The translations under genes were made by a program, and so were the position numbers. Positions 16,091 to 63,891 of a DNA stretch of 64,000 nt are shown in pieces. Position 1 is the stretch's first letter. Every line of letters starts with the position of its first letter. Under the pieces are notes generated by a model. That model was not told where the DNA came from, searched no databases, and saw only the letters and a program-made list of their open reading frames with translations. Source of the stretch: Hydra vulgaris (taxonomy: Eukaryota; Cnidaria; Hydrozoa; Anthoathecata; Hydridae); assembly GCF_038396675.1 (NCBI RefSeq), contig NC_088931.1, positions 40,285,001-40,349,000 on the forward strand, in the 5' to 3' direction.

Positions 16091-16135
16091 TGTAAACTAC
16101 GATTCCATTGGATTGCAATGGAATCGTAGTTTACA
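16091..16135. repeat. Hairpin with perfect 20-bp arms
   Basis: TGTAAACTACGATTCCATTG is separated by GATTG from its exact reverse complement. No neighbouring gene is evident. The function is unknown. Confidence 0.85.
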
Positions 16136-16973: not shown

Positions 16974-17090
<117 letters not shown>

Positions 17091-20480: not shown

Positions 20481-20485
20481 CCATC

Positions 20486-20622
<137 letters not shown>

Positions 20623-23460: not shown

Positions 23461-24061
23461 TAGAAGGTATGAAAAAGGCCATACTTGCAACATTGTTCCA
23501 TGTTGCATCATCAGCTGAAAATAATTGGCATGCTTATTGCCCTGATGGTATCATACATAGTTGGTGTCATTATAAACAGGACAAAGCTAATTCAACATCT
23601 GCTTACAAGCCAAGTGCTGGTCTTCCAATCTCAGTCATCAGTCATATGAAGCCTATATATATATATCAATCTATCTCAAGAAGAACTCTCAAAAAAAATG
23701 CCGTCATGGTAAGATGCAAAACCAGAATAAAAGTTTTAATGGAATGATATGGCAGCGCATACTTAAAACAAAGTATGTATCGTTGACGGAGTTAAGTGTA
23801 TATGATGCTGTTTCAAATTTTAATATTGAAAGAAAAGCAAGTACACTTTTATTTGAAAAATTGAATATGATTCCTGGTATATATACACTTCAAGGCTGTT
23901 CAACCATGAACAAAAAGCGTTTAGTTTTCGCAGAGTATCAAAATCGACCAACATCTAAAAAGCGACGACAAGTTATTCGTAGATGCAAAAAAAAAAAAGA
24001 TGACGCAGAGAATGACCAAGAAGGTTGTTTATATGATCCTGGTTCTTGTTCTTATAAATAA

Positions 24062-24776
24062 CAGATTTTAAATTGAGTATTTGACATTATTATTTGGTAA
24101 AATTGTTAATGTAGTATTTAACTACTTTTTTCTCAAGTTGTTAATTTTTAACCTCCCGGCCGTTCTATCTCATTAAACGTATGTCAGATTTGCATGAAAT
24201 TTTTATCAAATGTTTATTGCATCTAGTTGTAAAATTGGAACTAAAAGTTTTACAATAATGTTTGTAGTTTTTGATTTGTAGAAGATTTAGTTCACAAAAA
24301 TGCTTTAAAAATTCCCTTATGAAAAAATCAGCATAACTTAAATACTTTGTTTTTTAGAACAATTTTAGTTCAGTTTGTAGATTACTATGTTGTTAATCAT
24401 ATGCCAAAAAATCATATTCTATAAGCTTTCGGTTACTGAGAATTAGAATGGCCGCGAGTTACCTAAGCATTTTTGGATGTCTGCCATTTTGCTTGGTAAC
24501 CATGGCAACTAATGAATTTATTTTGCATTACTTAGAATTCTGTTATGTTGTAGTTTCTCAGGATATTTTTTGTGTTTTTGTTAAAAAGATTTTTCTTATA
24601 AAAAATTTTTTTGAGGGGTCTTATACCTTAAATCGACAATAGAAATTTGACTAAAAGATGTGCATTTTTCACTTGTGGCTTTTATCTTTTTGGTTTCATA
24701 TTTTATGTTAAAATATTTAATGAATACCCAAATACTACGATGATAAAACGTATACTTTTGAAACAAAGGAATAATT
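24062..24776. other. Intergenic DNA between the Mutator-like and LINE relics
   Basis: Nothing is recognised. The 64-codon open frame at 24448-24642 encodes a hydrophobic peptide without a known domain and is probably chance or repeat-derived. Confidence 0.4.
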
Positions 24777-42300: not shown

Positions 42301-45300
42301 TTCAAAATGATTTTTTTTTTTTTAATATTAGGTTTATTTACAAAAAACATTTTTAGTCACTTTCGAAAAAATTCTCGTTCAGCTGCATTTAACCTTATTT
42401 TAAATAATTGTGTTTCAAATAATAAAGTTTACATTTTATAGAACATTTATGCCTACGCATAAAACCACAAAAACTAATTATTATGCTCAAATAATGAAAT
42501 TAGGATTTGTCCGATAACTTCCGCATCACCCATTACCTCATTCTGAGGAAACTTTGTTTTAACAAGTTATATATTTTATTTCATTATTAGACCAAAGTAA
42601 CTTACCATATGTATCTGGTTTAACTTTTCTTTTAACAAAATATAGTCAAGAAAGACCTAAAAACAACACAAATAAAATAATATTCTATTTATATATTATT
42701 TATGTAAATAATGACATAATGCCTTGATACCAAATAAAATTTATGATAAACTAAAAGAATTTAATAACAGATTACTTGTCCACCAAGTTTCCAGTTTTTT
42801 ATCGTACAACAGCGTTCAGGTAAACACAAATCTTTCAAAATGTTCTTCAAGTTTTCATAATCCTCTTAAAAATTTTTATCAGTATTTTTAATTTTTCAAC
42901 ATTTAAAAATAACAGAGTACTATTAAAATTGTGTACCTTCAATAATTGCATCCGCTGCCAAATTATCTATGGCAGCAACATGAGCTAATCCCCAATGCCC
43001 TGCTCTGATTAAATGAATAGTTTCTTCATATCTTCTGCCAATGTATTTTGCATGTAGTGCCTGATCAATAAAATCAATAAATTCCAACAAAAACAAAATT
43101 AACAAAAAAATGACTATAAACAAACAGAAAAACGACAGACCAACAGTTCAAATATTTAACCTTAGCTTCATGCATCCAATGTTCAGGTATTTGAAAATCT
43201 TTAATGATCATCTGCTCTTGTTCTGTGAACTGCATATCACCCTCCTTCTCATTTATTAAACAGTATCTTGAAAGAATGCGTTTTACAGAACTCTCTCGTC
43301 TAAAAATTAAACAAGAAAAAAAAAGAAGACATTTTAGAATATTAAATACTTTTTGCCAAAAAAACTTTTTTTTACTAAAAAATATCTGCAAAGTTTTTAC
43401 GTTTCATTATCTCTCAAATGCATGAGAACAAAAACTGCCCACTGCCATAAACCAATACTTTCTAGTTGTGCAGCATAACTATATTGCAATAGAGCATGGC
43501 GATCATCATTTAAGTGAGTGTAACCAAGATTTTCTAAAACTCTTTGAAGGTGCCAACTATAAAAAAAATCAATAAATAACTTCATATGAAATTAAAAAAA
43601 GAAAAAAAAAAAAGAAAAGAATAACTTAAAATTACCTGAGATGATAGTCGACCATATTATTGACATGGGTATTGGGTGTTAAAAGTTTTTCAAGTAAATG
43701 TTCTCGTTTACAATAAAGATTTAGAATATGATAACAAATATCCTTTGAGGTACCTTCTTCATCACTTTTTTGGTACGTAGGATGAGGGTAAGACGAATAA
43801 GATCCATATGTTTCAGTCCCCTTAAAATAAAAATCCACTTTTATTTATGCGTGAAATGAAATTACTAAAAATTAGTAAACCAATGTAAATTAACAAAAAC
43901 TTCAAAGGTTAAAATAACTCAATAAAAATAAAATATGATAACAAGTTTAAAAAAAAATGATTAAAAAAAAATTAAAACACACCTTAAATGAATATTGGTA
44001 TTCTTTAAAAGCATCATTAATTGTGGCTGTGGCTGGACAATAGTACCTATAATATTATATGTAGATTATCTTCATGCATTGCATTACCTGTACTGCATAT
44101 ATACACAAAATATAGATTTATATCATACACACACAGGTTTGGCAAAAACCCAGTTTTTTTTTGGATAAACTTGGGCTTTATTTTTATTTCGTATTTGTTA
44201 AACTTTTTTTTTTTTTTAATGGTATTGAAAATTAGTATAACTTTTAATACCATTGAAAATTATACTAATTTTTAATAATTTATAACAAGAACTTTTCAAA
44301 TTATTTTGAAAAAGATTTTTAAACATAATTTAAAACTGTATTTATTTAAAAAATAATACTAAACAAAGTTTTTTTGCTATAACAAAAGTTAATCAAGATA
44401 CACAAACTCTCAATCAATGACTGCAGCTATAAAAGTATGACATCATCAATGACTTTTACAATAATGACTTCATGTGTTAAAATTTTATTTTTTTGAGACT
44501 ATAAATGTATATAAGTCAAAATAATTAGATAAAAAAATGCTAATTAGATGCAAATATTTATCTTTCTATTTATAGTAAATAAGTTAAGTAAATAAATAAA
44601 ACAAATCATTTGAATGTTAACTTAAATATATGTGCATGATAACATAATTTAATCTAATTTAATTTAATAAAAAGCTTATAACAAAGTCTGGCATACTAGT
44701 TTTCTCTTTTCATGGGATGTATTTGGAAAAGTTATTAAATCTATTGAATCATTCTGATTGCAGTAGTAAAGTTGTCCTAGGTCCTAGATAGACAGCAATC
44801 TCTTTCTTTTCAAGTAATCTCTGGAATACCTCAAGGTTCCATCCTTAGTTTCTACTTTAGGTATCTTCTATCTTGATTTCATTTGCTACCTCTATTAATC
44901 CCCTTTCCATTCTTGTATAAAATACAACAAAGTTTTTATTTTTCATTTAGTGATAAAATAATCTTGCAGGAAAAACAAAACAACAACAAAACAAAAAGAC
45001 TTATTGTGTGTATATAGTATTGTGTGATAACATAAGGTATAACCAATAGTTTTGCTTGTTTATGATTTGGAATTATAATGATAAAAAAGAGGGTTGCAGC
45101 AACAATTAAAAAAAAAAGAAAGAAAAGAAAAGCTTCAACTAGATAAAAAATATTATATAATAATTGAGGGTTGTAAATATTCTAAATGTAATTATTTATA
45201 GGCACCACTAATTTAATTTCAAGCATCTACATTAATCTCTATTGGCATTATTCATGTTCTGTCTTTGCTTCCTAATTCTTAGCTCTACAGCTGCTTGTAA

Positions 45301-45581
45301 CCTGTAATACTTTAACTGCTTGTAACCTTGTAATACTTTAACTTTAAGCTTCCTTAACTGAAATAGCCCACTCAACCTTAACTAGTTAACAGTAATATCA
45401 ATTAAGTTGAATACAGTAATAAAATTAAAAAAAAATTACCATAAATGCAAAGCAAGACTTCTCTTCCAATTTAGTTTTTCACATAAACTGATAATGTTTT
45501 TTTTAGATTTCCAAACCATCATACCAGACATTAACACATATAACTTTAAACGATTTACATTCATGAACAAATCGATCTATA

Positions 45582-45673
<92 letters not shown>

Positions 45674-48600
45674 CTTTATACTAGAGATGTAATTAAAACA
45701 ATATTAAAAATAAGAAGTCTGCTATCAGCACTTTAATGTACTCTGTAAACCAAATATGCCTTGCTGAAGGGTTTTAATTTGTTTCAAACAAAATTATTAA
45801 TGACTAATTAAAAAAGGAAAATTATAGTGTTTTTTTTAATATTAAGATAATGCAAGATTTTTGTAAAGTTTTAGATAAACAATATTTATTATGCGGAATA
45901 ACCAAAATCTTTTTTAACAAGATAATAAGAAATTAAGAACATATTGTATATTTATATTTGCTTAAAAAAGTCATACCAATGACCACATAAAGTGAACTTT
46001 TGTAAAGTTTTTGGCAAAATTAATTTAACGTACTTTTGTAAAGTTTTTGGCAAAAGTAATTTAACATGTATTTTTAATCTTTTTAACATGTACACAATGA
46101 TTGGATGCTTACTTTCAAAAAGAAGCAATCATGTTGTACTTTTCTAAATACCAACCTTTTTTTTTCTAAACTTATAATTAGGAGAAAGAATAACAATTTA
46201 AAAAAAAAATTATTTGATTAAAGTCTTAACTATATTTACTGAATCCTATTAAGTTGAAAAAAAATAATTTAAAAAAGCACTTAAACTGAGTTTTATCATT
46301 ATTTGCATCTCCCCATGTTTACATCTTTCATTAGTTGTGTAGTTGATTATGAAACAAATAAAGATGAACATGCAAAAATCACGATGAAAACAAAGATAGA
46401 CATGCAAAAAAGATTGCTGAACTATAGTGTTACCTGTAAAAGGATATTTTATTTAATAACAGTTAAACAATAATAAACTACTCAGTTTTCTTATAGTTTA
46501 CTAAATTAAAAAGCTCTTTCAAATAATAAATATTTCAGTGAACTAGGAAAAATGCTAAATACAATTACAGAGCTAAACAAAAACAAAACTTTGAAAAAAT
46601 AACCACTTATAACCTTGCTTGACTGCATACTTAAGGATCTTTCTGCTGATCAGGCTCATGGTTACAAAAATGTAATAAAATACAGCTGAAGCATTACCTG
46701 AGAATTTATTAAACCTTGTCCCTAGGTTTATGACCAAAGTTTATTAAATAAGTCCTGTTTTTCATTCCAAATATAAGGAAAAATCTTCAAAATCTATATT
46801 TGATTCTCGAAATTATAGTGGTTGTGTATTTATCTGCTGGTGTATGGTGAATGGTGTATGTTTCAACTAAAAAGTTGTTACTATAGTAATAATAATGGTG
46901 AAGAGATCGGCATGGTGTTTGCATTGCATTATTCAGACTTTTTTGTATTCCAACAATAAAGAAAAAATTTAAGAATGCAACATGTGCTAAAGATTAAACG
47001 GGAAGAAAAAGATAATACTCAATTCAGAGACAATTCAATAAGATGTTGCAAAGCCATGAGTAAAAATACTAATGCTGATAAATTGACTAAACTAATTGAA
47101 TTAAAAGATTCAGTTTACAAATAACTTTTTCAACAAATCTCACAACCCATTTGGTGTACTTCTTTGTTTGAGTTTCAACTTGCAATAAATTTCCTGATTT
47201 ACTGCAATCGCTACCCCTGTGTGTCTACAATTAAGTAGTGTGCATGCAACAAGAAACTAAACTAAATCTGAATTAATGGGGTGAAGTGTAAAACTCACGA
47301 ACAAATTATTTTATTTAAATGTTAATGCAGACTTAGCAGTGATTCACTTAAATTATTGAGATCTCTTATTACCTAAAAAAGTAAGCAAAGCAAACTTAAT
47401 CAAGTATAAGTCAAACTTTGATTGTTTGGGGGTCGTTTAAGCCATAGTTCTGATTTTTTAATAATTAATAATCTATTGATATTATTTTTGCCCTTTTTGT
47501 CTTGTCTTGTTCATTAAGTTTTTGTTTATTTTGTTTATTTACTTTGTTGCTGGTTTTCAGCAAATGTTTCTTTCAAGATGCTTCATGTTTAGTTTTTATG
47601 AGTAGTAACCAAACCTTGTACACTTTAAAGTTTTGCACTTAGCTTCAAACTTATTTAGCTTTTCAAACATCGCTTTCTTAAAGATCAAGGATGATCTGAA
47701 ATCAAATATGAATTGAGAAATGTATGAGTAAATTAAAAAAAAAGATGAATATAAACAACTTTTAAACAGTATCATCCAAAGCTCACACTTGGTCTGCAAT
47801 CATGGTTCTATTTTCACAGCATACTGAACTATGATAACAAAAATAAAATATGAATTACAGAATGTTTTGGACAAAAGTTAACGCTCTTTTTAGTTGCTTT
47901 TCTATTGTTTATATATATTAAATATGCCAAAATTGAGTTGTTAAAAAAATAAATTTGTTTGAAATTTTAATTTCAAAAATGATATTCTAATTTCTTGTAA
48001 ATAAAGAAACTGATTCAAAAGAATTTTCTCAAAACTTCAATCTTCAACTTTTTCAAAATTTTTAAATTGATTTAGTTAAGTTTTTTTTATATTCAAATAA
48101 TTTGATTGGTTTGATTTTTGTCTTTTTTTGTTTGTTTGATTTTAACCATATAAATGGCTCACTTAACCATACTAAATATCAGAATGATATTAAAAATTGA
48201 TATTAAAACTAGATATCAAAATTTGATATTTCAGCTAAAATACTGAACTTATTTAAATGTAATTGAACAAATTGAAAATTAAAACTCTTCCTCCTAATTG
48301 ATCATTTTTATTTATTTAATAAAAAATATGATCAATCAGGATTTTTTTTTAAATTAAAAGCCAGATCTTTCAGGCAAAACATTTTTTTTGATGTGTGCAT
48401 GTGTGTGTATACATATAAACTTAATAGGTTTAAAACATAGTTTAGTACATTAGACTCTTCCCACTGAGTCAACTGACTTCGAAGGTAATGTTTTAAATGA
48501 TGATCACCAGCTGATTGAGAAAGTAATGATGCAAGTCGAAATTCTTTATTATCTTTTGCAACTTGACATGCAGAACATAATTTATTTCCAGAAAGAAAAC

Positions 48601-51600
48601 TGAAAATTACAGAGAGATGTCCATCATCCTTAAAAAAAATGATTCCAAAATTATTAATAAAATAAAGCATAGAAAAATGTCTCAATTAACTCAGTCCTAC
48701 AACCTTCTACCATTTTCTATTTACCTTAACTTTATTAGTCAATACTTCTTCATTAACCTCTTCTTCTAAAACAATTTCAAGCCATTTTGAAAGCGCAGTG
48801 CGTCGTAAAGATTGATTTTCATATTTAGAATTTTCTTCAACTAAAATAATGCAGATATAAATAGCTAATTAAAACAAAAATACTGGTAAGTGATGTTAAG
48901 TTGTAACACCACTAACACCACACCAGTAACAAAACAAAAAATTATTGCAGTAACAAGATAAAAAAAAAATGATGGAAGAAATGAAAAAATAATAACTAGT
49001 AGGTATTTTAAGAATAAACTTATTAATTTAAAACTCTTTGTGAAGATTTTTTTTTTTTTAATTTAATTAGTTAAAGATAATAACTGATAAAAGATTGATA
49101 GACTAAGATAATAACTGATAAAAAAAGATTTAAAATAATTTTGAACCAAAAAAGAAACAGATAAAATCAAGATTGTTATTTGTAATTATTTCCTTAATAA
49201 AAAAGAATTCTAAACTTTCTATAAGAACTCTGTTTCTTTAGTTTCAAATTTTCAAGACTTGATAAGTTTGCTGGAATGGAATCAGAAATAAGAAATTAGT
49301 GAGCACAATAAAGAGAGGCAATCTTAGCAGATGCTAATTTTAAAATGAATTAGATGTATGGTTTTTATGAGATGTTAATAGTGGAAGTTGAACTAAAAAA
49401 AAACATTAGGAAGGTTTTAATTCATCAATTTAGGAATATCAACATTATTCAAGAATGTTTAGTAGAAAACAACGTTTTTGGCTTCACTAGCCACAAAAAA
49501 TACTTTTGTTTGGGTTAAACAAGCCACTCAGCAGCCACTGGAAACAAGCTGTCACAGATTTAGCATCACTTTGAGGATTGGCTGCTTATTCTAATCAATC
49601 AAAAAATGATGAATTTTTATAAAGCCAGGTCTATATGGCTGTATAATTAACAAATAGAGGCACTCCACTCTACTCCAGATGTATGATTGCCACTCCACTC
49701 TACTCCAGATGTATGATTGCTAATAAGATCACTAATAAACAATATAATACAATACAAAAAATAAACAAAACAATACCATAGATGCAATCTTGTGGTACCT
49801 TATCATTTATTGAAAAAGAGTTATTTTCATCAAATAAAAAACATCAAATAGATCATAAAAGAGAGCTTCACTCAGCTTCATAGACTCAAAGGTATAATTT
49901 TTCATAATATTGATTAAATTTCCCGAAAATGTCATAACACAGAAACAGATTGACATAATACTGTATCAAAAATGTCATAACAAAGAAACAAAATGTTGTA
50001 ACAAAAATATATATATATATATGCATATAAAATATGTTCATCAACTTTACAGAAATATACAATGTTCATCAACTTTACAGAAATATATCATGTTCATCAA
50101 CTTTACAGAAATATATTATGTTCATTATCTTTAAAGAAATATATTATGTTCATTAACTTTAAAGAAATTTATTATGTTCATTAACTTTACAGAAATATAT
50201 TATGTTCATCAACTTTACAGAAATATAATTTGTTCATTAGATTTTTAGAAAATATTATGTTCATTAACCTTAAAGAAATAAATTATGTTTATTTATTTTA
50301 CAGAAATGTATTAAATTAATTTTACAGAAACTATATTCATCAACTTTAAACAACTACCATTGTTTGGAGAACTAAATGTAATAAATTGATACAACTAATA
50401 ATCTTCGAAATATTTATTATGTTTTCTGTTTTTCTTTTTTCTTCTATTATTGTTACAACATTAAATAACAATTTGAAATAAATGTTATATTTAAAAAAAC
50501 AAAACTTTAAATCTAAATTTTTTTATGCATTTATTATATAATAACAATTACAATAGGTTATATAAAAGCTTACCTGGATCTAGTTTACCCCAAAGAGCAT
50601 CAACCAATTGCCATACCTCAGAGTGAACAGAAAAAAACTTTTTTTCAAACTTTGCTAATAAAAAAAGAAAAAAAAAGATTCAAAATAACAAATAACAATT
50701 CAAAACACTAGCACTAACAAAATATACAAATAAATACGAGCAAGTACTAACAAATACTCAACTATTGCTAATTAAGTATTAATACTTACAAGTAGCTTGT
50801 TTAAACTGTAAAGACTTTTCAGCATAACTTTTAATAGCATTATAAAGAGAAGACAATTTTGGCTTTTTTAGAGAGCTACTTGAGTCAAAAGTAAATTCAG
50901 TGTTTTTTAATGCTATGTTCAAACAATCCTTAAAAAAAAATCATTTTACAAGTATAAAAAAGTATATATTGAATACAAACTTCTTTGGGCTACATATTGC
51001 TATTAAAAACTTACTGCAATAAACTGTGTACTTCCCTGATGAACATCAGAATTTAAACGTTCAACGTTAACAAACATATTGGAAAGACCAAATGGAGACT
51101 GAGTACAAGACTGAGTGAAGTTTCCTGAATATAACCCTTGCTTTAAAGTCTCTGCTTTAGGTATTCCAACACAGTCTCCCATGTGAACAAAACTTAACCC
51201 ATTATTCCATCGCACATGAAATTCTCTTCCATGTGTTAAACTAGCATCTGCCAAAAGCCATGTTTTTCTGTATAGCAATGACTTTTCGTAAGGTACTAAG
51301 CCATATGAACGACATTTAATAAAAATATTGGGATTTTCAGTATTATCAACTTGAATTATCTCTTTATCAGATGCTAAAAAAAACAAACAACCTGATTATC
51401 TCTCTTCTATTTTTTATTTATAAAAAAATTATACCAAATCTTAGAACAAAAAACTTACAAGCATAAATTTGCTGCTTTAAACTGCTTTTAAATAAATTGA
51501 CTTTTTTAGCTTTAGGTTCACTCTGAACTGTATTATCTAAAGTTAAGTTAAGAAACACAGAATTATTTAATGAGTCAGGTGGATTTTTTGATTTCGAAAT

Positions 51601-52193
51601 ATCAAGTTTCTGAAAAACAGAAGATGAGCGTCTCGACTCATTAAATATAGATGTATTTGAAAAGAGATGATTTTCTCTTCTTGCAGGTTTTTGCTTAACA
51701 TCAACCATATCCTCGTCATCACAAAGGATAGATGTTTTCATTCCTTGCAAAGTGAATGGCTTAACTTGAGACACTCGACCAAGTTGATGAGAAAATGGAA
51801 GATAATCTTGTTCCATTTGTGTTTCATAGTTAAACTCTATAAAAATTAAATACATTTTATAAAAAGCAAAAAAAAAAAAACTTTTTTTTTTGTATTTAAA
51901 ACAGAAACTGCAAATAATTCGAAAAACTTAAAATTTTATAACATCAATAGATTTCAATAGAACTTATTTTTAAATAGAACTTAATAATAAAATTCCACTT
52001 TAAATACCATTTTGAGAACTCATACTAGATTGCACTGGCATTTGATTGTCATCTTCTTTATCATCCATTTCAGTGTCAGATGTTTCTTTGCTTATTGTTA
52101 ATTCTAGTCCAGGATTAAAGCTTTTAATAGGAAAACGATCTTTTACTTCCTCTTTTACAAGTGATATAATCTCTTCCTAATAAATGAAAATGC

Positions 52194-52257
<64 letters not shown>

Positions 52258-55200
52258 GCATACTTAATAAATATTAAATTCAAGGGCGCCCATGGCACCC
52301 CTAAATTTTTTTTAGCAACCATTTACTTATATATATTTATTGTTATTGCATTACAAAATGACAATAATTGTAAACCATAGATATTGCTATTGTTTCTAAA
52401 AAAAATTAATACAATAACAATAGTTATTGTTTCTGTTATCGTTTTCATTACAATTACAATAGTCTAAAACCTAGTCACAAGTTTTGAATATTTTTAAATA
52501 ACCACAAAACAATTCTCTAAAAAAACATAAGTTTACCTGTTTTTAAATACATTGTTATTGGTTAGATGTCTCGTAAAAATTTTTTTTGTATATTTATTAA
52601 GTATAAGCTTATGTCAATTATAAAGAAAATATTATTAGTATGATAAAATCTCATAACAAATAAGTTATGACTGCAAGTTGACATTTTGCAGCAGTATGAA
52701 AAATGTGGACATCATTTTAAAAAACGTTCATTTTAATAATCCTACTTCAATATATTATCTTATTAATTCTTTTATTATTATTATCATTTTCTATTGTATA
52801 ATTTGAAGGGTAGGGGTGGAGGGGGTAGAATTATAACCAATACATTTAATATTCTATGTAAGTATGACTATTATATTATGCTAGTGGCTTTTTGCCTAGA
52901 TATTAGCATTACTTCAGAAGTCATGTTTGAAGACAAAATTTTGACATTTGAAGATTTCAAAAGCCATCTAATTATGGATGGCTTGTTGTGAAGCAGTGCA
53001 TTAATCTGATGCGCTATTATAGCAGTGTCATTTAAATTTGCATTTAAATCTAAAAAATATTTAACAAAATAAATGGATGTAAAAATGTTTGCACTGTTAG
53101 AACCATCTAGAATTAATTAGTGATATGGTGATCCCCTCAGGAATGTATTGCAATAACTAATGGTTATTGCAATACATTCAATAAATAATCTGACCTGCAT
53201 CTGACCTCAAAGACCTGCACTAAAGTCACTTGTCAGAGACCTTGCAGCAGGTCTGTTTAATATACATACACACACAATGATTATAAGTAGAAAAAGAAAA
53301 CTTATTGCAACAAGTTCATAAAAACTTTAAGAAAGCTTAAAAATGAACAACATGGAACCATAAAAACTTAAAGAAATATTACATTATTGACCATGATTGT
53401 TCCATAAAACACCATTATGGTTTCACAAAAATAAAAATACTAATGAGAAGCATGCGAACTTCATTATCAATCAAATAATAACTAACATCATTAAGAAAAA
53501 GTTCATGAAACAATATGATTGAATAACATAAATAAATTTATTTATTTTATATAAATAAAAATCTTTTTTAATTACAATTGAATTAACAGTTTTATTGAAT
53601 GCCAATATAACCAATAACAAAGAATCTATAAAATTATATACCTGTGTGCCAAACTTTTCAAAATGAATACTTTCATCAATAATATAAGAAAGTTCCTTTT
53701 CCTTCTTCAAACTAAGTAAAGATTTTTTTGTGTGCTCTATTTCTGCATCTTCGCCGATAAATTGCTCGTGCAAGCCATACCGTGTAAAGTGGTTAACCTA
53801 ACATTCAAACATATTGAAAGCATTGTGGTTTATTTTAGAAAAATTTATTCATTTAAAAATTTATTTTATAAAACTTTAGAACTTTAAAATATGATTTTTT
53901 ATTAATATAATTAAAAACTTTTTAATTATGTTATTGAAAATAACAATTGTCATTTGAAAATAAAAATTATGCTATTATTCATTACTAAACAAATTTGACT
54001 AAAATTGCCATTTTTTTATGTCAGCATTTTTAAAAAAACTTACTCTAAACACCCATGCACCTTCCTTTGGCTTGTAATCAAGAAACATAGCATCCATGGC
54101 AAGTGTTTTTTCTTCAATACGATCAATAAAACCACTTGCTTTCAATCTTTCTGGAGTCTATTGAATTAAAATATACTGCATACAGTTTATATATAATTTA
54201 CACATGTTTAGGGTCTCACTAACACTTTAGTTATTCGTTTCTAACAAAAGTGTTGAGCTCTATTTATTACTCTCTATTTAACAAGAAGCATGGTAACGAG
54301 GTTACGTTAACAAGAGGCTGTTATATCTTTAATATTTTATTTAAAGCTAATTGTATGCAACGTTCAAGAGTATTGTATTACAATGGTGAGTACATACAAA
54401 AACGAAGTAAGTTGCTGAGGTATCAACAGTTATACACCCTTTTAGACTTTTTTTTAAATTATAACACTTAGAAAACACAATAACCTCTTAAGTTATAGGG
54501 TTTTCAGTTCTTGACAAGGAGCTAACTATAAAAAAATTTATACATTGTTTAATGACCTAAATATTTAACAACTATTTTAAAATTTAATACCTAAGAAAAT
54601 TAATTTAATAACATTTTACAGTCCAAAATTTTTTTATTTTTAATATTCAATTTCGAAAAATAAAGCTTTCATCTGTGTAAGATGGAACTATTGCTAAGAA
54701 AGGTAAATTCTATTTTTAAAGAATACAGATAAATTCTATTATTAAAGAATACAGATAAATTCTATTCTTAAATAATACAGATCAATTCTATTCATAAAGA
54801 AAGGTACAGATTAATTCCATTCTTAATGAAAGGTAAAGATGCATAAACCTCTATTCTTTTCATTTTTATAATAAATCATTCTACTATTTAGTGGCAACAA
54901 CATCTTATACCATCATTAATAATGTATATAACATATCTCTTTAAAAATGATTAAACGAATTTGGATGATTAAACGAATTTTGTAGTCTTAAGTGGCGACA
55001 ACAATTTGAACCATCGGTAAATTTACAACTTTTTTGGAGATATCAAACACTTGGAATTACTTTGCAACTCATGTACAGGTCAAAATAAAAAAAACAATGA
55101 TTCATTTCCCAGATTTTCAAATTAGGAAATCAGTGGAGAAAGTTTGATTCAACCAAAACCTTTCCTCTGATTTCCTAACTCAAGATATTTTTTCCCAAAT

Positions 55201-58200
55201 TCAGATATGATTGGCCGAAAGAGACCATTCCTATCCTAAGTGTGGTAAAAATATTGGGTCTTACCAATTGCAAGAAAAATACTGGCTTTAGACTGGCATA
55301 AAATATTTAAAGCTGCTAAAAAAAAACCAAGTCCTTAAGATAATCCAAAATATGGTAACAAATGTCTCAGTTTTTAAATCTCTGTATAAAGCTGGATGTC
55401 TCGTAGCTATGAAACCTCTAAAAGAAATTATACTCTCAAGTAAATCACTTGAAGCAACAAATAATAGAGATTCATGGAATGTATCTATCCATAACATTAA
55501 GGATTACTAATTTGTCTAATGTTCAAATGTAACTTTTAATAGCGTTAATTAATGTTCAACAGCAATCCAATAATGCTGTTTTGTTGAGTCTGTAAAAGAA
55601 AAAATATCCTTATTATTACTTCAGTACCTGAAATTAGAACGATAATCTAAGAGATAATCTTTAAAAATTTCTTTGTTGTTTTGTTGGTGAGTTCTACTGA
55701 GTCCCAGCTCTGAAAAGTATCTGACATTACTTGGGCTAAAGTAAAGGATGCTAGTCAATGTTCTGAACACCTAACCCTCTAGTGAGCAATGGCCAAAAAA
55801 ATTGGTGATTTCGCAAATTGATTGCTGTTTCGATTCAAAAAAAATAATTCAAGTTTTTTGAAACATTTCTTTGTTTTTTACTGTTGTTTGCTATCATACA
55901 TACGTTGCTATCATACATACAGCGCTATACAAAGTTGTTAAAATATTAACATAAATTGAAAAACTCAGAGGTAAAGAAATTTTGTAACCTAATTTAATAA
56001 AAATAACTGCCGATTAGGGATTTAAACAGAGCTGATCGCAAACTAGTAACATGTAAACTGTTTAGTTAAATAAATGTTAAGTCTATAATTTTGCTTACTT
56101 TTCAACTTCACTTTCACTTAAAGTAATTTGAAATTTGAAAATGGAACTCATCTATGGAACCATTTAAAACGTGACCGTAAAAAGCTACACGAAAAAGCAT
56201 CTAAAAAGCACGCATCTGCTACAAAAAAAAATGCTGATAACATAATTGAAAAATCATCAGGCTCTTCATAAAACTCACATTTTATTGAACCTCGAATAAA
56301 TAAATAATGGAATAAAAAAAAAAGATCATGCAATGCTTAGATTTATTTGATCATTTGAGACAGCTCCTGGATCTGGCTTCATCAATTTGTGCTTGGTCAG
56401 GGGTGTACACTCGTTCTTTTGTCGGTCGGCAGAAGGGTGACTGAAAGTAATCAGTTCATTAATTTTGGTTGCTCCCCAATTTTTTGAGTCGCCCGTCACA
56501 ATTTTTATAAACATTTTTGCATTTAGCGGAGTTCTCGCATATTCTATTCATTTTTCATTATAGGGCTAAGTGTAGACTAGAAATATTTTGCGTAAATAAA
56601 AGTAATATTGTAAACTATTGATCACGTTCACTTTTCTACTTTCAGATAAAACACATGCCGATATATGTCATTAGGTTTTTCAATTGAGTTGAGCACTTTA
56701 TCAAAAATATATGCGCTCTTTTTTACAACAACAAAGTATTGACAGATATAAAAAAAAATAATTTACAAATACTTTAAGACCCTTTGCTTTTAATTAGTTG
56801 TAATTATTAAGATCATATTTGTTACGGTAGCCTGAATACTATTGATATTTTGAAAGTATTTTAAAGTACTGCATAATTAAATGTAAATTTAAACTGCATT
56901 AAAAATTTTAACTGATTTAACAAAAAATATTAATAGAATCTAGATTCGGTATTTGAAAATATTTACTTTTAATTTATTTCTTAAAACAATCTTATACTTA
57001 ACATTATCTTTTGTTTGTTTATTATAATTTATTTATTTATTTTAATTTTTACGTATTTAATGTAGTATTTTTAATATTATAAACAGATTATAAACAATTT
57101 ATAGATAAACTTTATAAGTTACCAATAAGTTATTTGTAAAGGTAATTTATGTTCATAAATATATTACTTTAAAAGAACTTTACACGATATTGAACTAGTA
57201 AGAAACAAAAAAATTTTAATATATATACAATATATAAATACATTGGTGAAAAGAATTCTCTTAAACAAAATCACTTCTATTTATAAGAAAAAAAATTATT
57301 ATAAGAAAAATATTTTTTTATAAGAAAAATAAGTGAATTAATAAAAAACAAAAATTTTTAAATTTATTGGTGAAAAGAATTCTCTTAATCAAAACCATTC
57401 CATTTTATAAGAAAAAAGAAACTTTTTTAATTTACTTTTGCATCTATGATAATCTATGACGGATTTTTTACGTAATAAATTAGTTTGCAGGCCATAAGAT
57501 AATAAAGAATATAAAAATAATAATAAATAACAAAGACCATAAAAAACTTTTTTAATAAAAGCTGCGAAACTATTTTACATTGATTTGAAATTAAATTTTA
57601 CATTCCTTCCAAACTAAATTTAAATCTTTAAAATCATTTTTAATTTAAAGTCTTTTAAAATTAATTTTTTTTTAATAAAACAAGTTGTTTCTTTAAAAAA
57701 CTTGTGGTTAAATATCTTTTTTTTACGACCTAATAATTTCTGAATAAATGTCACATAAACAATAATTTGAAAATTCCACAAAAAAAATTAGTTTTATTAC
57801 TTTATCTCTAAATCCTTAAATAAAATTTGTGAAAAAAAAATTAAAATAAAACAGTATTTTTGATTAAATGATAAAACTTTCGTTTTTATTTAGGAAGTAT
57901 TTTGTTAAATACATTTAAATGCTCGTACAATTTTCTAATTAATAATAGAGAAAATGGAAACAAACTTTGACACTTTTAAAATATAGTTTTATAGAACTAT
58001 TGAATCAGAAAAAAAAATCAATAGTCGCCTTTTTTGCATCAAAGGAATATTTTTAGTCACTCTTTACAAAATTCGGTTGTCTGGTACTGTCAGATGACCA
58101 CGAGTGTACATCCCTGTTGGTGTTTATTCAAGGGCAATATCTACCACCGCACCTAACCAACTTAGGAATTTGAGTGATATGGTTGATGATCTATATAATA

Positions 58201-59493
58201 GCTTCCAACAAAGTATAAAACGGCAGTGTATCACTAAACTTAGCACCACTTTTGATTAATTTAAGACCGACAATGGCGATAACTTTCTTGTTTTGACTTG
58301 TCATTATATTTCATCCTTGTGGGTTTTAGAATCATGCTGTTCATTAGTTGTAAATCTGGAAATAATAAATGCTTGTCACAAAGCTATTTCTACTAAAGAA
58401 ATTATAATACATGTGCTGTCAAAATTTGACTTAACTTCAGATAATATTTTACAAGCTACAACTGAAACTATTCCTAGTATGCATGACACAATTAAACTAC
58501 TTGGAATAGATTGGCTAGACTGTTGTGCTCATCTCTAACTCCAACACCCAACTCCAACACCCAACTCCAACTTGGTGTGAAATTAGCTATCCAATACTTG
58601 TGACATTAATTAGCATAGGGCATAAATTAGTTGGATTTTTTCACTCATCATTGTTTGGACAAGCAGCACTCAGAAAGTGACTCAGATTTCTCAAGGAAAA
58701 CCTGAGTCAAAGCCTCCAATGGAGGTGGAAACACGCTTTAACACCACTTCTAACTTAATGGGATGAAAAAATCATAGTTCTATAGAACTAGCTCTAGTTG
58801 TAGTGCTCACAATAAAAAAACTGTATGAAAATGTCACCGACTTGTCTAACTGAAACGCAAGTAAAATTTTTAACAATTGTTCTATTTTAAATTTGAAGCC
58901 ACTACTTGCGGAAAGCCACTAAGTGCGGAAAAAAAGCATGAGTGCTAATTTAGTTAATCCTTGTATTACAACTTTGAAAAGTAAATTTGTTAATTTTATC
59001 AATTTTCGAAAAATAAATTTGTTGATTATTTTACTACGCAGTTGGAAATCAGGTTTGAATTAAGTGAAGACCTATTTCTTTATCTCTACCTTCTTAGACT
59101 TATTTACTTACTTTTTAGAGTTAGCTTAAACCCTCAATTTAAATTAGCAATGCTTAACTTGGCAGAGATGCACATTGTGGAATCTTACTTAATAGTCTGA
59201 AAAAAAGCACGATTTAAGTATTTTGATGTATAAATCCCGATGAAACTCAAGGGAACAATTTCTCATCTGAAACAAATTGAAACTCAATATAAAAAGTTTG
59301 AACATTTTTCTGAACAATTTCTAAAAATTGTACCCTTTAGATCAGCAATTGAAATTTGAAATTACTGCGTACATTGAAAACATTGGGACGTTCAGATTGT
59401 CCTATAATCAAGTTGCACTTGATTTTCTTGCTGTACAAGCTATAAATTGTTCATCAGAAAGAGTTAACTCTGTGGGGGGAGAAGTAAAGGGGA

Positions 59494-59567
<74 letters not shown>

Positions 59568-60628
59568 TGTATGTATTTTTGTGTTCATTAACTTTATATA
59601 GTTTTTTAACTTTATTTAATTGCTTTTCTAGATTAAAATTTAGACTCTAGGTCGTGACATAACAAATACATCAAACTTAGCTGTAACAAATAATAAAAAA
59701 CAAAGGTTGCTAAAATATATATAAAACTGTGTGTGCAACAAAAATTTTTTTAAATTGAATAAAAATTTTAACCTTTATTGGTGTTTGGGTTGATTTATCG
59801 TTTGGCCAAACTTTGAGCAATGTAATTTCAGCTGGTTTATTTAATTCATTCCCAATCTCAGGCTTATTTACATAATTATCTGGGTAGACTTCAACTTCAC
59901 GCCGTCGAAAAAAAACTAAACAAACATTAAATTTGCAGTCTGAAAAAGTTTCTGAAAATAATTACTAAAAAACTAATAGCACAGCGCTGTTACATAAATT
60001 AATACTATTGTATATCTAAATAATTTTTATAAAAAACAACAAAAAAGATTTACCTATTTCATCAAGGTTCAAGCCGTAAACATTAGTAACACCAAGAAAT
60101 TTAACCTCTCCATAACCATCTCTTCCAACAATAAAATCTCGAATTAAACATTGTTCACTTTTTACCATTTCATCCAAATCTTTTAAAGGAGGCTTCGTAT
60201 AGTACTCAGGCCTATAAAAAAATAATGATCTACCAGCTCTATCAATTCCTTAAACCTAAAAATTTTAAAAATTTGCAAAAAGTGCAAAATTTTTTTTTGA
60301 AAAACAAATAAAATAACAACCTTGACAACTTAATATGACTCAATGGAAGTTCTTCATTCTCTGTCTGAGTATAGGTTACAACAGGAGACTCTTCTTGGTA
60401 GCTTTGCGAAAGAGGAGTCAATAGGTATCCTTTACGCTTAGTTGGTAACGGAGTCTGGGCATTATGATTTAATTCAGTTATAGTACTATCAAATACTTGT
60501 CCGTTCTGAGGTGAATCAACTGTGCTCTGAGGGCTCAAAACAGATTTCGGTTTAATATCAGGAGGAGGAGCAATAAGGTCATCATCTACAGTTCGAAATT
60601 TTAATGTAACATCATCTGCCACATTATC
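38782..60628 (-). CDS. NUP98: NUP98-NUP96 precursor, 3' 23 exons (autoproteolytic domain and all of Nup96); 5' end outside window
   Basis: The precursor is cut by its own autoproteolytic domain (APD) into Nup98 and Nup96. Nup96 is a scaffold subunit of the Y-shaped (Nup107-160) nuclear pore complex. Exons (minus): 60628-60321, 60211-60054, 59915-59773, 54157-54044, 53797-53642, 52176-52008, 51836-51459, 51373-51015, 50928-50790, 50654-50574, 48840-48725, 48628-48449, 45576-45440, 44046-43983, 43820-43636, 43556-43401, 43299-43161, 43060-42937, 42864-42776, 42656-42606, 39381-39278, 39196-39133, 38961-38782. All are GT/AG with matching phases. They sum to 3594 nt, 1197 residues plus stop. About 245 residues precede the cleavage point and about 952 form Nup96, close to the human size. 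The first exon has an AG acceptor, so FG-repeat and GLEBS exons must lie beyond the window. No break was found. Confidence 0.95.
39588..39828. mobile_element. Possible hAT-type MITE in a NUP98 intron
   Basis: A GC-richer island whose right end, read in reverse, starts CAGTGCCGTGGCTAGT. The left end is CAGGGCTGTGCGGTGGCATGG. The ends resemble hAT-type CAGTGGCGTAGC termini but pair imperfectly, and no clear 8-base duplication is seen. Confidence 0.4.
40276..40515. repeat. 32-bp minisatellite with a hairpin in every unit, 7 copies plus a partial
   Basis: The unit is TCTCCATGCAGC followed by AACCTTGTTTAACAAGGTTG. The latter contains the near-perfect inverted repeat AACCTTG/CAAGGTT around TTTAA. 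Copies 5 and 6 carry point changes in an arm. It lies in the intron 42605-39382 of NUP98. Confidence 0.92.
41201..42533 (-). mobile_element. Tc1/mariner element (1333 bp) with intact TIRs in a NUP98 intron
   Basis: The left end ACGGGTGATGCAGAAGTTAT and the reverse complement of the right end ATGGGTGATGCGGAAGTTAT agree except at two positions. Both continue CGGACAAA, and TA is duplicated at 41199-41200 and 42534-42535. It lies about 70 bases downstream (in the gene direction) of NUP98 exon 42656-42606 without harming the splice site. The minus strand encodes a broken transposase. Confidence 0.93.
41320..42330 (-). pseudogene. Mariner-type transposase, N-terminal part degraded
   Basis: The catalytic part is open from 41883 to 41320. 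IDDEKYF with the first Asp lies just upstream at about 41920. [32 protein letters not shown] (second Asp) and [15 protein letters not shown] follow, again with Lys where Glu is expected. The N-terminal helix-turn-helix region near 42330-42000 is split by shifts and contains an exact tandem duplication of about 35 bases (about 42190-42260). It is inactive unless supplied in trans. It belongs to the same lineage as the copy at 22277-23313. Confidence 0.85.
42606..48840 (-). CDS. NUP98: Nup96 alpha-helical core exons
   Basis: Ten exons. Conserved landmarks are [52 protein letters not shown] with [16 protein letters not shown] (joined by a W codon split TG/G between 45440 and 44046), [59 protein letters not shown] and [13 protein letters not shown]. 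Exons 45576-45440 and 44046-43983 are short and were found by similarity and phase. They close an otherwise missing stretch. Confidence 0.92.
44755..44935 (+). pseudogene. LINE reverse transcriptase scrap in a NUP98 intron
   Basis: One frame gives [17 protein letters not shown] at about 44819-44870, the RT motif SGVPQGSxLGP. Surrounding frames are broken. Only this motif supports it. Confidence 0.5.
45581..45672. repeat. (TA)n-(CA)n compound microsatellite
   Basis: A short TA run followed by about 35 CA repeats, immediately upstream (gene sense) of the acceptor of NUP98 exon 45576-45440. On the transcribed strand this is a long GT run ending in ATATATTATAG. Length changes here could affect splicing of that exon. 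Confidence 0.95.
45673..48448. other. NUP98 intron between exons at 48449 and 45576
   Basis: AT-rich, with no gene recognised. A near-exact 34-base duplication (CTTTTGTAAAGTTTTTGGCA words) lies at about 45994-46062. Near 46780-46830 the plus strand gives [14 protein letters not shown], faintly like the RT motif KSDPxNYRP, but this is too weak to call. The 67-codon minus frame at 47596-47799 shows no domain. Confidence 0.4.
49270..49445 (-). pseudogene. Jockey-like LINE fragment in a NUP98 intron
   Basis: The minus strand gives KPYI and [15 protein letters not shown] separated by a stop, corresponding to the segment just before the CMEYCCHIW motif of the copy at 30470-30960. No other part is present. 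The same intron (50573-48841) also has an exact tandem duplication of about 30 bases (CACTCCACTCTACTCCAGAT) at about 49665-49725. Confidence 0.55.
50030..50335. repeat. 28-bp minisatellite, about 10 diverging copies
   Basis: The unit is roughly TATTATGTTCATCAACTTTACAGAAATA. The first copies are nearly identical and later ones drift. It lies about 250 bases downstream (gene sense) of NUP98 exon 50654-50574. Each sense-strand unit is T-rich without a fixed splice-like AG. Confidence 0.85.
50574..52176 (-). CDS. NUP98: Nup96 N-terminal exons (linker and start of helical domain)
   Basis: Five exons. 52176-52008 and 51836-51459 encode a polar, poorly conserved linker with [21 protein letters not shown]. 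51373-51015 carries the conserved [42 protein letters not shown], matching the segment before the Nup96 Sec13-binding helices. 50928-50790 and 50654-50574 follow ([16 protein letters not shown]). Confidence 0.92.
52197..52258. repeat. (TA)n microsatellite next to a NUP98 exon
   Basis: A TA run starting about 20 bases before the acceptor of exon 52176-52008. The intron upstream (53641-52177) is otherwise AT-rich and holds a 17-bp hairpin at 53141-53179. Confidence 0.95.
53141..53179. repeat. Hairpin with perfect 17-bp arms
   Basis: GAATGTATTGCAATAAC, spacer TAATG, then the exact reverse complement. It lies in a NUP98 intron, and the function is unknown. Confidence 0.85.
53642..60211 (-). CDS. 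NUP98: NUP98 autoproteolytic domain exons
   Basis: Exons 60211-60054 ([37 protein letters not shown]), 59915-59773 ([18 protein letters not shown]), 54157-54044 ([13 protein letters not shown]) and 53797-53642 ([13 protein letters not shown]) build the APD fold. The cleavage tripeptide, HFS in the human protein, reads HFT here (CAC TTT ACA, 53791-53783). After it comes an acidic, Lys-rich linker that begins Nup96. The 5.6-kb intron 59772-54158 contains a hAT relic. Confidence 0.93.
54690..54845. repeat. 26-bp tandem repeat, about 5 copies
   Basis: The unit is TAAATTCTATTCTTAAAGAATACAGA-like with progressive drift. It lies in the 5.6-kb NUP98 intron. From 54850 to 56130 nothing firm is seen. 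A plus frame near 55320-55500 ([17 protein letters not shown]) faintly recalls Tc1-type transposases but is too short to call. Confidence 0.75.
56130..59500 (+). pseudogene. hAT transposase relic in a NUP98 intron
   Basis: Scattered plus-strand remnants in hAT order. At about 56150-56205 [19 protein letters not shown] resembles the end of a BED finger. At about 58293-58530 [17 protein letters not shown] and [10 protein letters not shown] match the catalytic-domain segments of ZBED-like hATs. At about 59400-59475 [27 protein letters not shown] matches the C-terminal dimerisation region ending SERVFS. Many stops lie between. It is a different copy from the one at 17087-20489 and is much older. 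Confidence 0.65.
59498..59564. repeat. (TA)n microsatellite
   Basis: An uninterrupted TA run abutting the end of the hAT relic's dimerisation-domain remnant. Confidence 0.95.
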
Positions 60629-62709
60629 CTTCAAAAATTTAAATAAATTAAATATAAGATGCCTAATGGTTTTTCTAGTTATTATTACATTGTAATAATT
60701 TTTAAAAATATCTAGTAATAATTTTTAAAAATAATTTTGATTAATAATTTATTAAGGCACCATCTTAATATAATTGCTACAGAAACGTTAAATGTTTAAT
60801 GTTTAACGTTGTTTCATTAGTTATTAGGCTTTGAAAGAGCGCGTTCTCAAAATGCATGCGGTCATTGGAGAAAGATCTTTTAAGCGAGTTAAAACTTTTT
60901 TCCTTTTGGAATTTAATTATTAGTTTAGATATATTACATAAAGAATCATATTAAGATAAATAATCATCGTTAAGATCATATTATAATTGAAGTAAGTATA
61001 TAAAATAGTTATATATACATTTTTATTAGATAAAGTAGAAAGGATTTAAATTTTTATTAGATAAACTAGAAAAGATTTAAAGTAGAAAGGATTTAAATTT
61101 TTATTAGATAAACTAGAAAAGATTTAAAGTAGAAAGGATTTAAATTTTTTAAATCGTTTATATTTTGTTTATTTTAGTTTTTCTTTTAGCAGTTTTATTT
61201 TTATTATTTTATTTTTTAGAAGGAAAATAGGGACATGAATGTTATTTAAAGTTATACTATTGCTATTTCCATAAAATGGTTATTACTACTTTGAAATTTC
61301 TGTGATGCTATTAACTATTTTTGCTCTTTTTAAGAAAATTTAGAAAAATAGATTAAAATTTTGTGCCAACACTGACATGCCATGTCACATGTTTTTGTAT
61401 GTAAAGGTTGAATTTTGTTATGATGATTACAGTTCTTATGAAAAAAAAAAAGGTAAAGAGTATTGTTTGTAAATATATATTTTGTTTACTTTGAATCTTT
61501 TTAAATTTTCTCACATCATTTTTAAAATTTTTGTTTGCACACATTTATTGTTTTACATATATGCTTTTTTGATATTTATGTGTATGTGGTAATAAGAGCT
61601 TTATAGTTGTTTTATCAATGTGTTTTTATAATAATGTAAAGTGTTTTTTTATTGTTTGTGTATGTGTTAATATGTGTTATATAACTGTTTAAAGATGTGT
61701 TTAAATATGTATATAAGGTATATATTTAACTTTATATACATATTTAAACACATTTATTGTGCTTATAGTTGGTACAATGTTTATATTATGTTGTTTCCGT
61801 GTTTTCAAAGTGCTGTGACTTGGTAAACGTTTAGAGCAAGATTTGTCAACTTTGCCAGCAAAGTGATGTACTTACAACAGAGGGTTACACGATAGTATTT
61901 AGTGTCAAACTGTTACTGCTTTAGGACTTGCTGTTTTCAAGCCTTTATTATTAATTATTCTAAAAATACATAATAATGTATTTTAATAACATTTTGCATA
62001 ATGTTGTTACTTATGTTCTGTTATATATGAATGTTTTCTTACTTAAGTTAGGTTATATACATATTATATTAACTTATGGTGTGTGCTATTATTGTGTGTT
62101 GTTGCTGTGATGTTTTTTTTGTTATCTTTTATATTGATACACATTTGGCTTGTCTTCATGTTGGTGTCTATTGTTAAAAATAGTAAATAGGTAATTTTAT
62201 CAAAAATCACTGCTTTTAATCATTCACTAAAAGCCAATATAAATTATTTTGCATATATATATATGCATTTATATTTGCATATATATATAAAATTTATTTT
62301 ATCTCAATTTGATTTTTTGTCTTTAGCGCTGTTTACTACATGATTTTGCTATAAATATATTGGAATCATGATGTTCCAGCATAAATTATTTTGTAAAAGC
62401 TAACATGAAATAGTAATATTTTACAACTACTACTCTGGTAAATCACAATAGCTTTTCTCTATAAGGTACACTGATTTTTATTTTTTGTATGTAATGTTTT
62501 TCTTATTTATTTACTTATTCATTACATTTTTTATTTTAGATTTATCAGATGATGTATTTATGTGGTATAGAAGAACAAAATATTGTAAAGTTTTGTGAAT
62601 TTTTTAAAAATGCTTACTTATAATTTTTTTGAAGAAATAATATTTAAGTTTGCATTAAAGGGTTTACAACGCTTTTTTTTTAAATTTTTCTTTGAATTGA
62701 ATTAATTGA
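60629..62709. other. NUP98 upstream intron / flank of the micro-exon gene
   Basis: AT-rich. Bases 61020-61150 are a tandem repeat built from TTTTATTAGATAAA and AAAGGATTTAAA words. Bases 61696-61752 form a hairpin. No FG-repeat coding sequence of Nup98 was found on the minus strand. Some TTTTAG-preceded stretches on the plus strand (about 61219, 62333, 62540) could be leader exons of the micro-exon gene, but none keeps a phase-1 open frame. Confidence 0.45.
61696..61752. repeat. Hairpin with perfect 21-bp arms
   Basis: TGTGTTTAAATATGTATATA begins arm 61696-61716. The exact reverse complement is 61732-61752, with a 15-base loop. Confidence 0.85.
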
Positions 62710-63891
62710 ATGTCCCAAATTGTTGACGATGAAGGTTTGTATTTATTTAGATGTGTATTATGTTACTGATTCGTATCATGTTATGTAGTTAGTTTTTAAA
62801 TATATCTTTATTTTTAGTCGCTGAATTACTAAGAAGTAAGTTTTGTTTTATTTTGTTATAATTAAATGTTACAAATTGCAGTTCGTATATGTTTGTTGAT
62901 TTAAATTAGCTTTACAATAATAAAATGGTTTAGATGAAAATTTTTGTAAATTAATTCAATCCAGAAAGATTAAATATCTATTTTAATATTGAAGTAATTA
63001 AAGAGGTTTAAGAAAGAATCAACTTCAATATTTGTTTGCTTTTCTGTTTAGATGACAACAGTATTATTGGAGAAAGTTAAAGCATTTTTACTTTTTAAAA
63101 AGGAAAAAAAATACTTTTTAATATATCTGTTTTTTTTAAAGTAGGTTTAAAATTTCAGGTTTTTAAAATCTTATGTATTATAATCTTAAATATTTTTTAA
63201 TTACTTAAAAAATATCTCTATGTTAAACTACACCAGGTTGTAGAAAATAGTTATAGTTAATGATAAGGTTGTAGACTGTTAGAGCAGATTAAATAGATCA
63301 AAGATCTATTTAATCTACTTAACCTACTGCCAAATTGAAAATTCACTATCAATTGTTTGTTTGTTTTTCTGTTTAGTTGACAACAATGAAGAGAGAGGTA
63401 GTAAGTTCAAAAGGATTTTTATTTTTTATAAAGTAACTAAAATGTTTTTTAAAATATTGTTGTTGACTTTAAAGTAAAACAGTATGTTTTTATAAATTTA
63501 TACAATAAGCCCAAGAACATAGGTCCTACTTAAAATTATATTCTCAATATTAAAGAGAAGAAATTTAAAATTCTTAGTAAAACAGATTTTTATCATTTTA
63601 TATCAAGTTAGTTTAATTAAGATTTTGTTTTCTTTAGTTGATCAAGAGAGAGCCAATAAAGGTATTAGTTACATTAGTTAAACGAATTTATCTTAAAAAA
63701 ATTATGTAGATATTTTAACGTCTATACATTTAAGTGCTTTTATTGTTTAGACACAGAATTGAAGAGTGAAATAAGTCAGTGTTTTTGCTATTAGATATTT
63801 GTTAATAGGAATTTGTTTATTCGTACTGTAACTGTAACTTTAAAACTTCAAGTACTTTATTTTCTTTTAGGAGAGTTGGAAAAAAAACTAA
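62710..63891 (+). CDS. Candidate micro-exon gene, 7 exons of 18-25 nt, continues beyond window
   Basis: Exons: 62710-62734 (ATG; MSQIVDDE), 62818-62835 (VAELLR), 63052-63075 (NDNSIIGE), 63377-63400 (IDNNEERG), 63638-63661 (IDQERANK), 63751-63774 (DTELKSEI), 63871-63891 (RELEKKL). Every intron interrupts a codon after its first base, has GT and AG ends and a T-rich TTTAG acceptor, and internal exons are all multiples of three. Introns are 83-301 nt. The chained frame stays open and encodes a very polar, Asp/Glu/Lys-rich, probably helical or coiled-coil peptide. Exons 3-5 have related borders (TTTCTGTTTAG then TGACAACA or TGATCAAG), suggesting exon duplication. I know no homologue. The start codon and anything upstream are less certain than the internal exons. 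It lies antisense to NUP98, within its upstream intron. The exons are so short that ORF-based annotation would miss them. Confidence 0.6.

Follow-up and report, generated by a model that had tools for sequence, protein, structure and literature searches.

Helitrons carrying passenger genes have been described before, and the available portions of three reports already document that Helitrons capture genes, that their passengers can have several exons and that their transcripts can be alternatively spliced (PMC4067079, PMC3627910, PMC4528327). At its 3' end, a canonical element (Helitron1) has CTRR, a palindrome of 16-20 nt approximately 11 bp before the end, and a host T after it; its captures, in the part of that source accessible to us, are ordinary genes or gene fragments, e.g. 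histone fragments (PMC4067079). The Fanzor1 Helitrons of Chlamydomonas, members of the Helitron2 group, carry a multi-exon passenger of five or ten exons with EST support, which belongs to a TnpB-like family; the accessible text does not mention micro-exons (PMC3627910). In maize, Helitron-borne exons are alternatively spliced, and the elements combine exons from different pieces of captured genes, as the available part of the report describes (PMC4528327).

Genes built from short exons are known outside transposons. According to the excerpt available, the micro-exon genes (MEGs) of schistosomes combine short symmetric exons with protein variants produced through splicing, and their products are almost always secreted or membrane-anchored (PMC5825161). 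The bicycle genes of aphids have many small internal exons, almost all of which start at codon position 2 in the portion of the source at hand (PMC9168663). Among the literature matches listed, taken at the level of title and start of abstract and with most subscription journals outside the scope, there was no description of a micro-exon gene on a Helitron or in Hydra.

The locus described here lies in a stretch of 64,000 nt from Hydra vulgaris (the window, C12:40285001-40349000). It shares with Helitron1 the 5' TC, the 3' CTRR and hairpin, and the insertion between A and T, and its longer copies contain Rep or PIF1-like helicase frames. Whereas Helitron1 captures ordinary genes or fragments, the Hydra passenger has nine internal phase-1 micro-exons, and in contrast to the exon mixtures of maize it is one family-wide gene made of uniform micro-exon modules. 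Fanzor1 differs in both the passenger family and the Helitron group. As in the bicycle genes, the internal exons begin at codon position 2. The resemblance to schistosome MEGs holds in architecture only, as the preliminary description had stated: the exons are short and symmetric in both, whereas about 80% of MEG coding sequence is in short exons and about 54% of that of the Hydra gene (235 nt in E1-E10, followed by a 66-residue last exon). Unlike the MEGs and the bicycle genes, the Hydra gene is transposon-borne, and unlike the MEGs it has a terminal exon of nearly half the coding length.

Structure of the micro-exon gene

Seven consecutive GT/AG-bounded phase-1 exons in a continuous frame had been proposed at 62710-63891, and re-derivation from the sequence confirmed them at exactly these coordinates on the plus strand. 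E1 (62710-62734, 25 nt) begins with ATG and ends in phase 1. It is followed by E2 (62818-62835, 18 nt), E3 (63052-63075, 24 nt), E4 (63377-63400, 24 nt), E5 (63638-63661, 24 nt), E6 (63751-63774, 24 nt) and E7 (63871-63891, 21 nt), the last micro-exon within the window. All six introns between them are of the GT/AG type and in phase 1, and the joined exons form one open frame encoding the peptide MSQIVDDEVAELLRNDNSIIGEIDNNEERGIDQERANKDTELKSEIRELEKKL. There are eight TTTAG sites on the plus strand between 62600 and 64000, six of which are preceded by a stretch with 12 or more pyrimidines among 18 positions, a limit set by the weakest acceptor among the six exons. All six of these pyrimidine-rich sites lead into an open symmetric phase-1 micro-exon (15-33 nt).

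Several details of these exons vary. E2, E5 and E6 align across copies of the region, and the donor of E3 is damaged in the window copy, where a weak, shortened gttaaa stands in place of the gtaagtta found in 12 of 18 other copies. For E4 there is a choice of two in-frame donors, separated by 3 nt, so that it can also be read as a 21-nt exon; its module DNNEER is present in the database protein P0133, which agrees with the 21-nt form. Local alignment and a repeat search (93% over 30 nt) revealed an internal duplication on the plus strand, in which an intron-exon-intron unit containing E3 (62886-63174) is the first copy and a unit containing E4 (63213-63501) the second. An in-frame start, MSI..., is located further upstream in eight of 16 other copies matched by script, and likewise in RefSeq proteins such as P0122. 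The first start of the family may thus lie upstream of the ATG at 62710, in a stretch that a deletion has removed from the window copy.

The gene continues past the window, in coordinates extended from the copy's own numbering (L009 + 61000). The search for further exons of the same phase, suggested in the preliminary description, was fruitful: an alignment of 12 copies contains the phase-1 exons E8 (64424-64453, 30 nt, in 11 of the 12 copies), E9 (64536-64556, 21 nt, in all 12) and E10 (64746-64768), followed by the terminal exon E11 from 64851, all on the plus strand. E10 is 24 nt long in 10 of the 12 copies and 23 nt long in the window copy. In all, the gene consists of a single start exon, nine internal micro-exons (18-30 nt), each of which begins at codon position 2, and the terminal exon. 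The lengths of E2-E10 are multiples of three in the majority of copies, i.e. these exons are symmetric. By eye, the peptide of E5-E8 looks coiled-coil-like.

The Helitron and its copies

The 1182-base micro-exon region was compared with its own genome (911.5 Mb, 15 contigs), which includes the window. The 40 scored of 404 first-look candidates gave 47 matches on 13 of the 15 contigs. Besides the window copy there are at least 39 main places, 38 of them with an identity of 86-92% and one with 81%. Twenty stretches were read, two of them from the locus of the window copy, and homology between the copies begins and ends at fixed points. In the window copy, these shared ends delimit an element of 5526 bp on the plus strand, which runs from 60763 to the window's edge at 64000 and on to extended coordinate 66288 (L009:5288), 2288 bases beyond it.

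At the 5' end of the window copy, a host A is directly followed by TCTTAATAT at 60763. The same TC after a host A is found in the C6 and C12 copies; the C10 copy has ATCTTAATAC near the start of the alignment, and the 5' end of the C11 copy falls at a simple repeat. The 3' end of the window copy, AACCCGCATTACGGGTT GCTTTCTACTAG/T, consists of a hairpin, CTAG and the host T. In ten copies compared, the 3' terminal bases are CTAG, CTGG or CTAA in nine and ATAG in one (L021), and the next base is T in all ten. The hairpin is altered in some copies, for example C10. Inspection of one site by eye revealed no repeat common to the flanks ...AAGGCACCA and TTAAAATAAT..., i.e. no target-site duplication. 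The micro-exon region is inside a canonical Helitron family with many copies, and its copy number together with the Helitron ends led us to reject a single-copy host gene.

Four longer copies (9.5-12.5 kb), which had been chosen for having the micro-exon region, contain frames for Rep or helicase that precede it on the same strand. Pfam identified Helitron_like_N in the C6 copy (1.7e-55) and PIF1 in the C12 copy (5.1e-35); similar Rep/helicase frames were recognized by eye in the C10 and C11 copies. The long C12 copy is without the Rep part, and the window copy has neither the Rep nor the helicase frames. In blastn comparisons of the window copy with the C6, C10, C11 and C12 copies, its 5' part (60763-62694) meets its 3' part at an internal-deletion junction with an overlap of about 20 bp (62674-62694), located just before E1. 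The C6 copy has approximately 7.2 kb more at this junction (2248 to 9476), and its frames for Rep and helicase fall within this segment.

The neighbourhood of the element contains several other features. The final portion of a NUP98-like gene, on the minus strand, lies below 60.7 kb; by eye, this NUP98-NUP96-like gene spans 43074-60634 (exon frames 60016-60249, 51003-51386 and 48332-48685). A search for its FG-rich N-terminal half at 60-78 kb found no minus-strand frame of at least 30 residues with three FG, so that nesting of the element in a NUP98 intron is no more than a possibility. Further away, a gene for PIGN (GPI ethanolamine phosphate transferase 1) occupies 1110-9192 on the minus strand, and the best relative of its 1110-2600 frame is 72% identical. 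Transposon frames (hAT-like, mariner-like, and pieces of reverse transcriptase and endonuclease) were seen by eye at 14329-26634 and 41320-41883.

The copies differ in their state of preservation. The E1-E7 alignment includes the 18 of the 39 other scored places that were fetched, and the E8-E11 alignment 11 of these plus the window copy. The exons align in all 18, with the exception of E3 in L025 and of E7 in L014 and L017. Among the 19 copies, the splice dinucleotides and lengths of E1-E7 are all intact in six, three of which (the window copy, L022 and L023) have no stop. The aligned exons of L023 join into a 142-aa open frame, though the donors of E8 and E10 are lost in that copy. The frame of the window copy is shifted because its E10 has 23 nt, as in L025. 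To judge by these features, the window copy is a decayed, internally deleted member of the family from which the full protein is probably no longer made.

The set of exons also differs between copies. Four of them (L033 and L036-L038) have E4-E11 in common with the window copy, and the homology ends inside intron 3 (63172-63191 in the window). Their 5' parts, read over 1.6-2.4 kb, gave no blastn match to the window copy or the four long copies. Other phase-1 micro-exons occur in these parts: all four copies have EVRNKMS, EVKTKMT and QLEGAEGLF, while ITSVAPATT is found in L033, L037 and L038, and ASGSTLNN in L033 and L037. In three more copies (L034, L035 and L039), the part in common with the window copy is limited to E8-E11 and the 3' end.

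Exon modules in database proteins

RefSeq models served as a stand-in for transcripts; they belong to related copies and not to the window copy, and the matched proteins appear to come from another assembly. In a homology search with the 142-aa joined protein, 19 of 27 candidates had E<=10, and 18 of these 19 are uncharacterized proteins that bear the name Hydra vulgaris; for several of them there are numbered isoforms. The same search with the 53-aa E1-E7 peptide, lengthened by X residues to admit longer proteins as candidates, returned none of eight candidates at E<=10. The peptide across the E1-E2 join, DEVAELLRN, is present in seven RefSeq proteins, which represents the same join in related copies. 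Neither a known domain nor a solved relative was found, and no Pfam match came near the cut-off. Some of the RefSeq forms have a hydrophobic N-terminal stretch. The bicycle genes of aphids are characterized by paired Cys-Tyr-Cys motifs; by eye, there are none in the 142-aa protein or the matched RefSeq proteins.

In a blind scan, the DNA of the copies was searched for phase-1 exons of 15-36 nt and the resulting peptides were compared with the 18 named proteins. The plus strand yielded 391 peptides, 12 of which are present in these proteins (six micro-exon modules and six pieces of the last exon). The controls were clean: 0 of 331 peptides in phase 0, 0 of 202 in phase 2, 0 of 126 on the minus strand, and none against the reversed proteins. 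The scan identified ITSVAPATT, ASGSTLNN, DNNEER, SGRSIT and SSSSCEN in P0133, and SGGSIT and SSSSCEN in P0121. The order of modules in P0133 is VASSVGAN/IITSVAPATT/VASGSTLNN/VDNNEER/VSGRSIT/ASSSSCEN/ESLTFEEYK, which means that E4 in its 21-nt form directly precedes E9 in this protein, without E5-E8. P0121 contains NNFMDEMRGI/VSGGSIT/ASSSSCEN/ESLTFEEY, a near form of E8-E9-E10-E11. The predicted E7-E8-E9 peptide (NNFMEEMRGIVSGRSIT) occurs in none of the RefSeq proteins, and a near form of it is found in P0121.

Symmetric exons can be skipped without loss of frame, and the isoforms anticipated on this ground are annotated. P0125 and P0126 (LOC124809685, X5 and X6) differ solely by eight residues, NVGDNIGT, and P0131 and P0137 (LOC105844623, X2 and X5) differ in several stretches. 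Two further isoform pairs are set apart by 18 residues that follow the E9 module and, judged by eye, extend E9. In the RefSeq pipeline, such isoforms rest on transcript evidence. The earlier notion of a gene built from phase-1 exons of 6-8 residues is supported: the modules, of 6-10 residues, can be included or left out without loss of frame, and the database proteins of related copies have them in different combinations. It has to be amended in that the gene is Helitron-borne and not an ordinary host gene.

Origin of the gene and its last exon

Taken together, the sequences of the copies and proteins indicate that the micro-exon run very probably belongs to a gene that a Helitron family of Hydra carries as a passenger. 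How it came to be there can be explained in several ways. A host micro-exon gene could have been captured whole by the Helitron and spread as a passenger, in which case the parental gene would lie outside Helitrons and have a real function. Helitrons are known to capture genes, as the available parts of two reports state (PMC4067079; PMC4528327), and the proteins of LOC105846287 and LOC105850467 (P0136 and P0138), which have divergent N-terminal modules and nearly the same last exon, could be the products of host genes. However, no copy outside a Helitron was found among the places read, the ends having been checked for some of them, and the best of 150 scored matches to the last exon of P0136 is only 78% identical (C7:18720866); this copy, L040, is again an internally deleted element of the same family. 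We consider such a capture possible, if somewhat short of probable. In both P0136 and P0138, the last exon is preceded by two NHGDETEV-like repeats and by a long string rich in Thr and Ser.

Alternatively, the gene might be native to the Helitron lineage and encode an accessory protein for movement or its control. Its position on the same strand behind the Rep/helicase frames in the four long copies (two by Pfam and two by eye, all chosen for the micro-exon region) is consistent with this explanation. Furthermore, among the best 150 scored of 1178 candidate places of the last exon, which are 77-100% identical to L023, a hand count found no internal stop in 112 and at least one in 38, although stops are under-counted because the scored places are the best-scoring ones. 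On the other hand, no known domain was found in the protein, and copies without Rep exist, such as that in the window, so the gene is not needed together with Rep in cis. Some of the last-exon places form pairs with identical scores, as if duplicated together: C13:1618585/1621708 (3 kb apart), C7:33047429/33067169 (20 kb) and C3:56560636/57050012 (0.5 Mb). A 1787-residue open frame at C8:64409808 was discarded as an artefact of a run of N.

Comparisons of exons and introns also bear on a native gene. In the 19 copies, nucleotide diversity (pi) is 0.085 in exons, 0.0865 in introns and 0.0895 in splice dinucleotides; the exons are not more conserved, and their variability matches that of the introns, as expected after insertion. 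We also compared the majority sequences A (10 A copies and the window copy) and B (four of seven B-like copies), skipping columns with a weak majority. They differ at 0 of 167 sites in the micro-exons E4-E10, at 4 of 365 in all exons and at 37 of 1289 in introns, with 0 gaps in the exons and 6 in the introns. This is the sole comparison favouring constraint (Fisher, p 0.017 for the micro-exons and p 0.057 for all exons). L040 speaks against constraint: it differs from the A majority at 26 of 297 exon and 55 of 890 intron sites (p 0.14), and from the B majority at 29 of 297 and 80 of 875 (p 0.73). The evidence for purifying selection is weak and mixed across four approaches, and we give a native gene somewhat less than an even chance.

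The last exon might instead be kept for its hairpins, which would serve the element as a structure at the DNA or RNA level, with the protein as a by-product. The DNA at L009:3845-4040 (extended 64845-65040) is strongly self-complementary, with nested hairpins, and in the window copy it folds as RNA with -73.9 kcal/mol and a z-score of -7.7. The columns of the stems are less variable than those of the loops in 22 copies (0.080 vs 0.127). With a strong fold and less variable stems, conservation of the last exon has two possible causes, structure and protein, and a structured element could sit inside the terminal exon. However, hairpins leave the symmetric phase-1 exons upstream unexplained. The gap inside an exon that sets L040 apart from the A majority measures 3 nt, which also argues against this explanation; in the comparison with the B majority, a 34-nt gap is also counted as exonic. 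We therefore regard hairpins with a by-product protein as unlikely. Rfam returned no match at the gathering threshold in the window, and a MIR6024 match at the end of the last-exon stretch (25.5 bits vs a cut-off of 72) was taken as chance.

That the agreement of borders and phases is unlikely to be a coincidence had been supposed from the beginning, and the counts agree with it. In the rest of the window, on both strands, a micro-exon follows 12 of 133 pyrimidine-rich TTTAG sites and the longest run is one; in 100 simulated windows of 64 kb the longest run was three, reached in six of them, and a run of six never occurred. A chance run of splice-like signals is hardly conceivable and was rejected: the window is indeed AT-rich and its TTTAG sites are numerous (159 on the plus strand), but the site counts, the simulations, the copies in the genome and the modules found in RefSeq proteins by the blind scan with its clean controls all speak against it.

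A possible mode of diversification

For the Helitron passenger gene, the following sequence of events can be envisaged. Each micro-exon would be defined by its T-rich TTTAG acceptor. Since every junction is in the same phase, inclusion and skipping of modules would yield proteins in which a constant basic C-terminal region is preceded by a varying series of N-terminal modules, each of 6-10 residues. Further modules would arise by duplication and by swaps within introns during copying of the element. Single copies would decay later; the window copy has lost the genes for Rep and helicase, and it also lacks one good donor and a base of E10. As for the protein, we would guess that it either has an accessory role for the element or is a host protein that was captured. 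Tentatively, then, and with less than even confidence, the Helitron could be described as a mobile self-diversifying cassette, in which interchangeable phase-1 micro-exons are duplicated and swapped in introns and combinatorially spliced before a constant domain to give a repertoire of proteins.

Genes made largely of symmetric micro-exons are known in schistosomes and aphids, and the Hydra gene ties this architecture to a many-copy rolling-circle transposon. With exon sets that differ between copies, a visible exon duplication and annotated isoforms, the birth, swapping and splicing of micro-exons can be followed from one copy to the next in a laboratory animal. In addition, a set of unnamed Hydra proteins can be explained as the products of one transposon family.
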